A stretch of 64,000 nt of DNA, taken from the IMG/VR virus record IMGVR_UViG_3300028558_000022, positions 26,979 through 90,978 of that record; one strand, given 5' to 3'. Source of the stretch: a virus. Below, one piece after another: positions 6,687-27,245 of the stretch. The position numbers and the translations under genes are program-made. The notes under the pieces are model-generated. The model worked only from the letters and a program-made list of their open reading frames with translations, was not told the DNA's origin and ran no database searches. Each line of letters starts with the position of its first letter. The first letter of the stretch is position 1.

Positions 6687-7559
6687 ATGAGCAGTGAACT
6701 CGTTCAGGTAAATGCTGCCGAATCAGCATTAGTCCAAGCGCCCGTAGGCGGACTTGGCGTAGACTTCAACAATCCCCTCATGCGGGTAAAGCCCGCAACT
6801 CTGGTTATTAACCAGCCCACCACACAGGCGGAAGACGCCATCAAGGGCAAGCTCCGCATCCTTGAGACCGGCGATCAGTATGACGAACTCTACGTCACGC
6901 TTCTGGACATGCCTGTCGAAAAGCGCACATGGTACGCCGGTAAACCCGGTGAACTCAACCGCACGGCTGAGAACCTGATGTGCTTCTCCAACAACGTCAT
7001 TCGCGACGCCAATAAGCGCGAGCTGCAAGGCCCTGACCCGAAGGCCAAGGTTCCCGGTGCGCTCAAGTGCAATGGCTGTCCCAAAGCATCGTGGGAAAAG
7101 TGGCGTCAGACCAAGTTACAGGAAGACATTCCGCCTTGTGAATCGTTCTTCTACGTGACGCTGATCGACACGAACTACAAGATGCCGCTTCGTTGGTATG
7201 TTCGCTCCGGCGCCAAAGACCCATTCGAGTCTGCGCTTCAGAACGTAGCCCGTAAGCTCTTCATGATGCGTGCAAAGGGCGGCAACCCGAACATCTTCGA
7301 CATCGGCTTCAAGATCAAAACGGACAAGCGGACCAAGAACAATAAGACGACTTATGTTCCGGTGTTCTCTGGATTCGATGAGATCACACCCGAGCAAAAG
7401 GCAGACTTCGGTGACATCTTCGCTCAGTACGTTGCGTTCAAGACCGCTCCGGCGCCTGAACAGACCGTAGAGGATGCGGTTGTCGAGTCCCAGTCAAGCA
7501 TCAACGGCGAAGTCGTTGAGCCTTCCGGTCCCGCTCCTACTGGCGAGATCACGATCTAA
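6687..7559 (+). CDS. Candidate single-strand DNA-binding protein
   Basis: 290 residues; ATG 6687 with AGGAGATAA upstream. A beta-rich core (GKLRILETGDQYDELYVTLL, FFYVTLIDTNYKMPLRWYVR) surrounds a short Cys cluster (KCNGCPK at about 130-136); the final 45 residues are acidic and Pro-rich, ending PTGEITI. A beta-barrel core with an acidic, flexible C-terminal tail, a dedicated strong promoter and a place in the replication region fit a phage single-strand-binding protein, but this is inferred from form and context, not from a recognised domain. The same terminal motif (GEISI) ends the primase-helicase at 18275. Confidence 0.6.
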   Translation: MSSELVQVNAAESALVQAPVGGLGVDFNNPLMRVKPATLVINQPTTQAEDAIKGKLRILETGDQYDELYVTLLDMPVEKRTWYAGKPGELNRTAENLMCFSNNVIRDANKRELQGPDPKAKVPGALKCNGCPKASWEKWRQTKLQEDIPPCESFFYVTLIDTNYKMPLRWYVRSGAKDPFESALQNVARKLFMMRAKGGNPNIFDIGFKIKTDKRTKNNKTTYVPVFSGFDEITPEQKADFGDIFAQYVAFKTAPAPEQTVEDAVVESQSSINGEVVEPSGPAPTGEITI

Positions 7560-7783
7560 CAAAAGCTCTCCGGCCCGCCTGTAAGAGGGTAATCGGTCGG
7601 TGAGGGGTGCGGGTGGCACCCAGCCGTGAGGCAAAGCCACCAAGGATCAAGTCCTCCGGGGATGAAAACTGGTACGCGAGTCCGAGCTTGGATGCGTGCC
7701 CATTGGACTGCGGGACAAGCTACCACAACACAAAAGCGAGAAGACGTGGGACGGAGAATCGTTCAGAACGCCTTAGGGCAGTG
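7560..7783 (+). ncRNA. Candidate structured RNA / leader of the RNA ligase gene
   Basis: 224 bases between two well-defined genes without convincing coding. Hairpins visible by eye: GGGTGC (7605-7610) with GCACCC (7616-7621); an arm GGTACGC...GCGTGCC of seven pairs (one G-U) around 7670-7700 that encloses a smaller GTCC/GGAT helix; AGGA/TCCT near 7650; and CCC...GGG just after. A frame is open across it, but its translation is Arg/Ser/Pro-rich and lacks a start with a ribosome-binding site. It could be a regulatory leader or an independent RNA; no known class is recognised. Confidence 0.4.
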
Positions 7784-8965
7784 ATGGGCATACATCAAGC
7801 CGTCGAATCAGGCTCGCTCCAATTGGAGGCGGAAGTGTACCTAAAAGACTACATGGATGTGGACAAGCTCCGCATGTATGAAGACGAAGGAATCATAGAT
7901 CGGCGAGGTCATCGTACCCTTCCGCTCAACATCTACACATTCTCGAAGAGGGCAGTTTACGAGAATCTCTGGGACGACATCACGACAAAGTGTCGCGGCC
8001 TAATCGTTCACCACAGTACCGAAGAGATCATCGCGCGGCCATTCGAGAAGTTCTTCAACATCGACACGGACTATCGCCCGGAGACTCACCGGGCCAATCT
8101 CCCAGACGCTCAACCAATCGTCTCAGAAAAGCTCGACGGTTCGTTGGGAATCCTCTGGCGCTGGGGCGGTCAACAGGGGATCGCTACAAAGGGATCGTTC
8201 CACTCAGAACAGGCGGAGTGGGCCACAAAGACGTACAACCGGTACTACCCGTTCTCGAAGTGGCCGGAAGGCTACACGCCCGTTTTCGAGATCATCAACG
8301 AATCCATTCAGCATCACGTTGTCCACTACCACGGATACAACGATCTTGTGCTCTTGGCGCTGATTGAGAACAAAACCGGTATGGAGCTTAACGAGCATTC
8401 GCTACAGCTCTGGGCACGGATGAACGGAATATCTGTGTCCAAGACCTATAACAAGTCTCTGGATGCAGTGCTGGCAGAAGATCGGAAGAACCATGAGGGA
8501 TACGTTCTATCATGGCCGCGTCTTGGCCGCACGCCGCTCAAGATCAAGGTGAAGCACAAGAGCTTTCTCGATCTTCAGAAGGTCGTTCACGCTGCTACAC
8601 CCGGCGCGATTCTCGAAGCTCTCAAGACTGGGAATGTCGATCTACTCAACACTTGGATCGGACAGACGAACGAACCTATCGGCCAATGGGTCAAGAGCTG
8701 GCTTGTCAGGCTGAATGGTAAGTACGGCGAGATTCTCATCAAGAGCAACAACGCTTACAAGCAAGCTCTCTTCGGCGCCAACCCTTCCGAATCCCGCAAA
8801 GCATTTGCGCTTTACGTGAAGGAACACGCACCGGAATACGCATCGATATGCTTTGCGATGCTCGACGGTAAGGATCACAAGACTCTCGTATGGAAGAAGG
8901 TTGAAGAAAACTTCGATGCGGAGCTGTCCAAGCCGTTCGCTATTGAGGAGGCCAAAGCAGCATGA
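7784..8965 (+). CDS. rnlA: T4 RnlA-type RNA ligase (Rnl1 family)
   Basis: 393 residues from ATG 7784 (AGGG at 7775-7778). ATP-dependent RNA ligases of this family seal 5'-phosphate and 3'-OH ends, for example of tRNA cut by host defence nucleases. Nucleotidyltransferase motifs are all present: motif I SEKLDGS with the AMP-accepting Lys116, CRGLIV upstream of it, motif III-like PVFEII (about 167-171), motif IV HEGYVLS (Glu238) and motif V LKIKVKHKSF (Lys253, Lys255). The C-terminal 130 residues form the helical Rnl1-type extension. Its last four bases overlap the next gene (ATGA), coupling it to a HAD phosphatase that could prepare 3' ends. A hairpin-rich leader precedes it. Confidence 0.85.
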   Translation: MGIHQAVESGSLQLEAEVYLKDYMDVDKLRMYEDEGIIDRRGHRTLPLNIYTFSKRAVYENLWDDITTKCRGLIVHHSTEEIIARPFEKFFNIDTDYRPETHRANLPDAQPIVSEKLDGSLGILWRWGGQQGIATKGSFHSEQAEWATKTYNRYYPFSKWPEGYTPVFEIINESIQHHVVHYHGYNDLVLLALIENKTGMELNEHSLQLWARMNGISVSKTYNKSLDAVLAEDRKNHEGYVLSWPRLGRTPLKIKVKHKSFLDLQKVVHAATPGAILEALKTGNVDLLNTWIGQTNEPIGQWVKSWLVRLNGKYGEILIKSNNAYKQALFGANPSESRKAFALYVKEHAPEYASICFAMLDGKDHKTLVWKKVEENFDAELSKPFAIEEAKAA

Positions 8966-9468
8966 ACGCACCCAAACGGATAGCCGTCGATTTTGACGGA
9001 ACGCTTTGTGATATGGCGTTCCCTGAAATCGGGGCGCCAAAGGTCGGAGCTGTGGAGGCCATGAAGGTTCTCCGTGCTCTTGGATTCAAGATCATCATCT
9101 GGAGCTGCCGGTGTTGCCACTGGGACTACGACGTATACGGCGGAGACCCTAAGCAGCCGGTCATGGAGCGCGACAAGGTTCAAGACATGATCGCGTGGCT
9201 CGAAGCTCACGGGATCGAGTACGACGAGATCGACGACGGCAGCCGGGGTAAGCCGAGCGCGGATTACTACATCGATGACAAAGGTATCCGCTTCGAGGAT
9301 AACTGGATGAACATTGCAGCATTCATCATGAGTCGTACAACGACAGAACGAGTGCTGGCCGAACGTCGGGCAGAGCAAGAAAAGGGTGCGGGCCGGGTAA
9401 TTCCCTTCCCCGTTCCATCGGCGAAAGAGGAAGTTCCTTTCACTGACGGCAGCGGGACAACGGCCTAA
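8962..9468 (+). CDS. HAD-superfamily phosphatase
   Basis: 168 residues. Motif I is VDFDGTL (nucleophile Asp10, acid Asp12); motif II is IIIWSCR with a Ser; a GKPSADYYIDD segment supplies motif III Lys and motif IV acids. About residues 1-130 form the catalytic core, followed by a charged, poorly ordered tail. HAD proteins of this compact kind include the 3'-phosphatase part of T4 polynucleotide kinase, and translational coupling to the RNA ligase (ATGA overlap) makes a role in healing RNA 3' ends attractive, although the sequence alone allows other phosphate esters as substrates. No kinase domain is attached. Confidence 0.8.
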   Translation: MNAPKRIAVDFDGTLCDMAFPEIGAPKVGAVEAMKVLRALGFKIIIWSCRCCHWDYDVYGGDPKQPVMERDKVQDMIAWLEAHGIEYDEIDDGSRGKPSADYYIDDKGIRFEDNWMNIAAFIMSRTTTERVLAERRAEQEKGAGRVIPFPVPSAKEEVPFTDGSGTTA

Positions 9469-26741: not shown

Positions 26742-27245
26742 TCAGCTCCGGGGAGCTTCTTGATTACTGCTACCTTCGGTTGATTTCGCATTCTTGACCC
26801 TCTCAGCGACCCATGCGCTCAGCTCGTCGGCAACCTTGCCGTATACGCCCGGCGCCCGGTCGTCAATGAGATTCCCATTCGCTTGTGCGTCGAGAAGTAT
26901 TCCGAGACAGGCCCGTGCATGGGCTAGGTGATGTACACCGGAGTCCTTTGCCTTCTCTTCCTTCTCTGACCATGCAGAGATGTGGCGAAGGGCCGCGTCG
27001 ATATAAATTCGAGCGACAACGTGCTTTTCGCGCCAATTGCGGAAACCGTACTTGAGATCGCCGTCCAGCATTGCACAAGATTCGTGCGCCATTGCCACCG
27101 GGCAAACCTGCCCTAGTGGGACTTTCTTGATTCCGAGCAAGTCCTTGGGATTCGTTCCCGTTGCCTTGGACGTTGCTCCCGTAGCGGTTCGGGAGAGATT
27201 TGAACCGTGCTCTTTCTCCCAAGCCGTTCCATCTGCTAAACTCAT
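26742..27245 (-). CDS. dGTP/dATP diphosphohydrolase N-terminal-like protein
   Basis: 167 residues; AGGAGGAGA precedes ATG 27245. The stretch NPKDLLGIKKVPLGQVCPVA followed by MAHESCAMLDGDLKYGFRNW and ending in HHLAHARACLGILLDAQANG is typical of phage proteins labelled dATP/dGTP diphosphohydrolase N-terminal (DUF5664). Members have been linked to dNTP pool control, in some phages with 2-aminoadenine DNA. Catalytic residues cannot be confirmed by eye; no purZ-type gene is visible here. It is next to ribonucleotide reductase, consistent with nucleotide metabolism. Confidence 0.7.
   Translation of the reverse strand: MSLADGTAWEKEHGSNLSRTATGATSKATGTNPKDLLGIKKVPLGQVCPVAMAHESCAMLDGDLKYGFRNWREKHVVARIYIDAALRHISAWSEKEEKAKDSGVHHLAHARACLGILLDAQANGNLIDDRAPGVYGKVADELSAWVAERVKNAKSTEGSSNQEAPRS

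Follow-up and report, generated by a model that had tools for sequence, protein, structure and literature searches.

A conserved three-stem pseudoknot RNA between genes and among tRNAs in soil phages

Within a 64,000-nucleotide stretch of viral DNA (positions 26,979 to 90,978 of IMG/VR record IMGVR_UViG_3300028558_000022; termed here the window), a gap at positions 7560-7783 separates a gene encoding a 290-aa protein (s290; 6687-7559) from an Rnl1-type RNA ligase gene, which matches the Pfam family RNA_lig_T4_1 (E = 1.6e-17) and which is followed by a HAD-type gene (8962-9468; PHROG matches) and by a gene for a 234-aa protein (p234). The question raised by this gap is whether it is coding, whether it serves the ligase gene, or whether it harbors an RNA with a role of its own. 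A sequence-only reading had taken it to be non-coding, and codon usage in both candidate frames agrees. The ligase frame stays open upstream to 7607 (GTG), and the ligase start is overlapped (TGATG) by an open reading frame of 40 codons; the codon scores of the GTG extension (7607-7783) and of the small frame (7662-7781) are -0.23 and -0.18, respectively, both of which are non-coding-like when measured against 120-nt windows of the neighboring genes (mean +0.26; minimum -0.01). Homology among the ligases sets in only past 7784, and the small frame, which lacks a counterpart in two homologous loci (L007 and L022), is unconserved and probably not coding. On the basis of these scores and of where ligase homology begins, both a ligase N-terminal extension and a small protein are rejected. 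Nor does ARAGORN find a tRNA cloverleaf anywhere in the window.

What the gap does contain is a 38-nt core (7604-7641) that aligns without gaps across eight loci and that corresponds to a three-stem H-type pseudoknot. Its parts occur in the order S1 (5 bp), GCG, S2 (6 bp), S1', a 3-bp hairpin with a GTGA loop (P3), RRA and S2' (Table 1). In the window copy the P3 stem pairs 7623-7625 with 7630-7632, and the bottom pair of S1 is a G.A mismatch, as it likewise is in L128 and L148.

Table 1. Features of the gap, of its downstream neighbor and of the corresponding slots in related phages (window coordinates unless a locus is named)
Feature	Position	Strand	Basis or remark
Conserved RNA, probable extent (5' AAGC box, P1, core, short tail)	7563-7655	+	alignments; covariance match over 7596-7655
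P1 5' strand, TCTCCGGCC	7567-7575	+	duplex energy, suggestive only; pairs with 7595-7603, one U.U mismatch
P1 3' strand, GGTCGGTGA	7595-7603	+	duplex energy; abuts S1
S1 5' strand, GGGGT	7604-7608	+	pairs with 7618-7622; 3 of 5 pairs changed on both sides
L1, GCG	7609-7611	+	alignment; invariant in 8 of 8 loci
S2 5' strand, GGTGGC	7612-7617	+	pseudoknot with 7636-7641; every cell paired (100%), both sides changed in 3 of 6 pairs
S1 3' strand, ACCCA	7618-7622	+	covariation
P3 hairpin, GCC-GTGA-GGC	7623-7632	+	alignment, covariation; GNRA-type loop, GTGA in 8 of 8 loci
L3, AAA	7633-7635	+	alignment; RRA in 8 of 8 loci
S2 3' strand, GCCACC	7636-7641	+	covariation
Small open reading frame, 40 codons	7662-7784	+	codon score; no counterpart in L022 and L007
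Rnl1-type RNA ligase gene	7784-8965	+	Pfam and homologues; downstream neighbor, not a fixed partner
s290-ligase slots in relatives	L003:3462-3554, L009:3616-3709, L005:3179-3340, L002:3720-3780, L025:3892-3990		

Support for this predicted structure comes from comparison and not from folding energy, because the nested minimum free energy (MFE) fold of the whole stretch is unremarkable (z = -0.89; 32 of 200 shuffles are as good). In the eight-sequence alignment, 96.4% of cells pair, as against at most 49.1% when the partners are slid; base-pair swaps match between the two strands, with 7 of 14 pairs altered on both sides; and covariation scores 0.513, versus 0.174 in shuffles. The covariation counts are alike when the window sequence is left out. 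Moreover, a covariance model built from the other seven loci only finds the window site within its 91-kb record at E = 2.9e-9 (the runner-up has E = 3.5), and a descriptor of the core and its loops has no match in 18 Mb of shuffled sequence. A covariance match of 68.7 bits spans 7596-7655 of the window. The earlier proposal of a structured non-coding RNA is thus upheld, both by covariation at eight loci and by the model from which the window was withheld. Because the scan patterns through which L123, L128 and L130 were found fixed CGTGAG and some other bases, the conservation of these bases at those three loci is partly a product of selection; the window, L007, L022, L137 and L148 were found without this constraint and carry the same bases.

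Upstream of the core, a helix (P1) likely ends directly at S1 in L007, L130, L137 and L148, where 2-18 of 500 shuffles have an equally good duplex energy; for the window copy (70 of 500 shuffles) the indication is weak, and in L022, L123 and L128 this comparison with shuffles does not support P1. The individual hairpins first noticed in the gap have held up less well than its structured character: a 6-bp hairpin at 7605-7621 is present, but the better-supported pseudoknot helix 7612-7617/7636-7641 (6 bp) is in competition with the two pairs at its top, and a 7-bp arm at about 7670-7700 appears in the window's own MFE fold and in none of the homologues.

The core defines a small family with eight distinct members, comprising the window and at least seven other soil viruses. 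The gap of L007 is clearly similar in sequence to that of the window; L022, in which the element fills the entire gap of about 80 nt, was added through a profile search with s290; and L123/L124, L128 and L130 came from motif scans of viral contigs. L137, which lies on the minus strand of Tunturiibacter phage Tunturi_3 within PP885686.1 86800-86910, was found by blastn from L123 with a match that is weak alone (E = 0.02), yet it matches the structure in full. L148 (E = 1.2e-10) was reached by the covariance model alone, in a search of 50 whole phage records; 10 of 50 records were positive, each with one copy. All of 50 further records, most of them bearing Rnl1, lack the RNA; blastn with the window gap matches no named phage; and a scan of a bacterial genome collection with the motif pattern gives no match. 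Other candidates were discarded. A match in Serratia phage MQ-4 lacks S1 and S2 and is attributable to chance, as the pattern matches in L016, L018, L020, L021, L122, L126, L127, L129 and L131-L136, which failed the pairing test, also appear to be; the slots of L025, L002/L037, L023 and L005 are not diverged members, because their records give no model match.

The surroundings of the copies bear upon the second part of the question. The gene order exonuclease - s290 - gap - ligase - HAD - p234 is common to L002, L003, L005, L007 and L009. The RNA precedes a ligase gene at three of the eight loci only (the window, L007 and L022). Elsewhere it lies between tRNA-Gly and tRNA-Ala within a 17-tRNA array (L123/L124), 20 nt before a tRNA-Tyr (L130) or after a 1382-aa gene and far from the ligase (L148). 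The Tunturi_3 copy, which bears no annotation, comes behind a lipoprotein gene; two tRNAs and a permuted tmRNA lie on the same strand, about 0.9-1.5 kb upstream of it. An Rnl1 ligase is present in the window phage, L007/L010, L022, the phage of L148 and Tunturi_3, and absent from the records of L123/L124 (67-74 kb), L128 and L130 (the latter two being short fragments). Because records without Rnl1 carry the RNA while mostly Rnl1-bearing records lack it, the ligase is no fixed partner. Within related phages, the same slot holds a tRNA-Tyr (L003) or a tRNA-Ile (L009), and in L002 and L005 it holds other sequence. The sequence-only reading had offered either a substrate or guide of the repair system or a leader of the ligase gene; both are unlikely, because copies occur in a tRNA array, near tmRNA and tRNAs and far from the ligase, and because a tRNA fills the slot in relatives. 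The s290-ligase slot itself appears to be an RNA hot spot, where a tRNA or other hairpin-rich sequence replaces the pseudoknot RNA in relatives.

The RNA fits no catalogued family. Rfam 15 has no match in the window at the gathering score and none even at E ≤ 10 for 7400-8000, consistent with the initial impression that no known RNA class applies; in Tunturi_3 and L148 its hits are all weak, due to chance and located beyond the core. None of the Rfam families of frameshift elements or antitoxins can be aligned with the core, and no HDV family matches it. Nor was a description of the motif found in the literature, which is weak evidence inasmuch as subscription papers lay mostly outside the search. 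Coronavirus frameshift elements are three-stem H-type pseudoknots with the same topology, S1-S2-S1'-hairpin-S2', but the window RNA lies outside coding sequence. Type III antitoxins also are compact H-type pseudoknots; the window RNA, however, has neither a repeat array nor a toxin gene, and membership in that class is rejected on the strength of one copy per positive record and no ToxN-like gene among the neighbors named (from a partial family search). The short S1, G-rich S2 and A-rich third loop of tmRNA pseudoknot pk1 are likewise common to the window RNA, which differs by its extra P3 hairpin and by having neither a tag nor a tRNA-like domain; the same phages encode their permuted tmRNA separately, at another site. 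Phage tRNA regions do host structured RNAs, since both theta (minimal HDV-like) ribozymes (PMC10879173) and GOLLD and ROOL, which are phage RNAs of unknown function often near tRNA islands (PMC12286853), occur there. Like the window RNA, theta ribozymes are small, pseudoknotted and often directly beside phage tRNA genes, but they differ in strand order and helices, and the window RNA is not confined to tRNA 3' ends; GOLLD and ROOL are ornate and many hundreds of nt long, as opposed to a 38-nt core, and neither family matches.

From the observed core structure, its conservation, its varied genomic contexts and its single copy per positive record, we infer, beyond a conserved pseudoknot RNA, a putative stand-alone small RNA gene, optional in phage tRNA/tmRNA regions, that would act in trans and whose knot would bind a protein or the ribosome; the probability assigned to this reading is roughly 0.45, that is, a little short of even. 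Such an RNA gene would resemble phage tRNA genes in being optional and single-copy and in occupying tRNA regions and the borders between genes. It would be about 80-110 nt long, fill RNA-gene slots of soil phages as optional cargo, and be transcribed either together with adjacent genes or tRNAs or by a promoter of its own. With the upstream helix P1 abutting the three-stem pseudoknot, the invariant GCG, GTGA and RRA may form one face for recognition by a protein or by the ribosome, and the RNA could play a role within these phages' translation-support set of RNAs (tRNAs, permuted tmRNA and, in one phage, RNase P RNA). Against a stand-alone RNA are its start at upstream 3' ends in five of eight copies, the backing for P1 in only about half of the copies, the absence of a recognizable promoter or terminator from the window copy and the small size of the family. 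More ambitiously, it may represent a class of trans-acting phage RNA not described before, with the conserved three-stem pseudoknot as its head, within a phage-encoded translation or RNA-maintenance kit (i.e., tRNAs, permuted tmRNA, RNase P RNA and RNA ligase), and putatively binding the ribosome or some host factor in the course of infection; this is a tentative proposal, rather likelier to fail than to hold. With this family, the short list of RNAs known from phage tRNA regions gains one more compact, structurally well-defined member. The sole named host among the carriers is Tunturiibacter (Acidobacteriota); because Tunturi_3 is a sequenced isolate with a known host (Tunturiibacter psychrotolerans X5P2), expression, partners and the effects of deletion are directly testable, and solving the structure of a 38-nt core with invariant loop bases is a manageable task.

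Among the competing explanations, the one that survives best, while itself unlikely, is that the knot forms a 3' boundary on the mRNA or tRNA transcribed upstream of it, where it would block 3' exonucleases or mark a processing site. This is kept alive by the abrupt start of the RNA, 0-3 nt from an upstream stop codon or tRNA CCA in those five copies: the AAGC box overlaps the stop codon (TAAGCTC) in L022 and L137; in the window and L007 the box lies 2-3 nt past that codon, and in L123 it abuts the encoded CC(A) of tRNA-Gly; and a tight pseudoknot is a plausible roadblock. However, in L148 some 40 nt separate the stop codon from P1, with a promoter-like site (TTGACA-17-TAAAGT, whose end lies about 40 nt before the core) in between; the L128 and L130 copies are likewise spaced from the upstream gene; the window copy lacks a terminator-like site; and a roadblock requires less than invariant unpaired GCG, GTGA and RRA.

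Those same unpaired bases, together with a compact pseudoknot, two tRNA-adjacent contexts and the precedent of HDV-like ribozymes beside phage tRNAs (PMC10879173), could instead point to a putative small self-cleaving ribozyme that frees an upstream or downstream RNA end in the manner of theta ribozymes. By analogy this is conceivable but distinctly improbable: the HDV-like order P1-P2-P3-P1'-P4-P2' differs from the covarying order S1-S2-S1'-P3-S2', which has no hairpin between the 5' strand of S2 and the 3' strand of S1; none of the thresholds tried yields a match to a ribozyme family; and several copies follow protein genes, where releasing a 3' end has no obvious use.

More doubtful still is a cis-acting leader that, like an mRNA pseudoknot operator, controls how the gene after it, which in three phages is the ligase, is translated. 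The core does end 5 nt short of the ligase ATG in L022, and an ATG lies about 20 nt after it in the window and L007, but the next gene is a tRNA in L123 and L130, no gene is annotated for about 690 nt after the L137 copy, and the downstream genes of different copies are mutually unrelated; a ligase leader is the reading least able to explain the copies in tRNA arrays. Least credible is a putative decoy or antitoxin-like RNA directed, by analogy, against a host or phage nuclease, which proximity to tRNAs and RNA-repair genes and the optional presence typical of counter-defense cargo would suit, but which the single copy, without a repeat array or an adjoining toxin gene in the loci examined, speaks against.

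Several companions of the RNA merit separate mention. Permuted tmRNA (Rfam RF04321, over the cut-off) occurs in the window's phage outside the window (G000:C1:6627-6865), in Tunturi_3 (PP885686.1 88172-88396; not among the annotated features of the stretch examined) and in records G004, G005, G009, G016, G018, G019, G022, G024, G025, G026, G027, G030 and G033. A specific link to the pseudoknot RNA is rejected, because permuted tmRNA is general in this phage group, being found in all tested records of at least about 85 kb with or without the pseudoknot RNA. The s290 protein, whose gene adjoins an exonuclease gene, matches no Pfam or PHROG family and has no relatives in the bacterial genome collection; it has a conserved CxxC pair, and its gene position prompts the guess that it may bind single-stranded DNA in this phage group. 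Tunturi_3 encodes both a PF09414-type and an Rnl1-type RNA ligase (PP885686.1 50868-51389 and 57281-58462). Finally, the phage tRNA array of L123 (IMGVR_UViG_3300029922_000057) includes, at L123:2375-2772, a bacterial RNase P RNA of class A that is complete in length and scores 162.5 bits.
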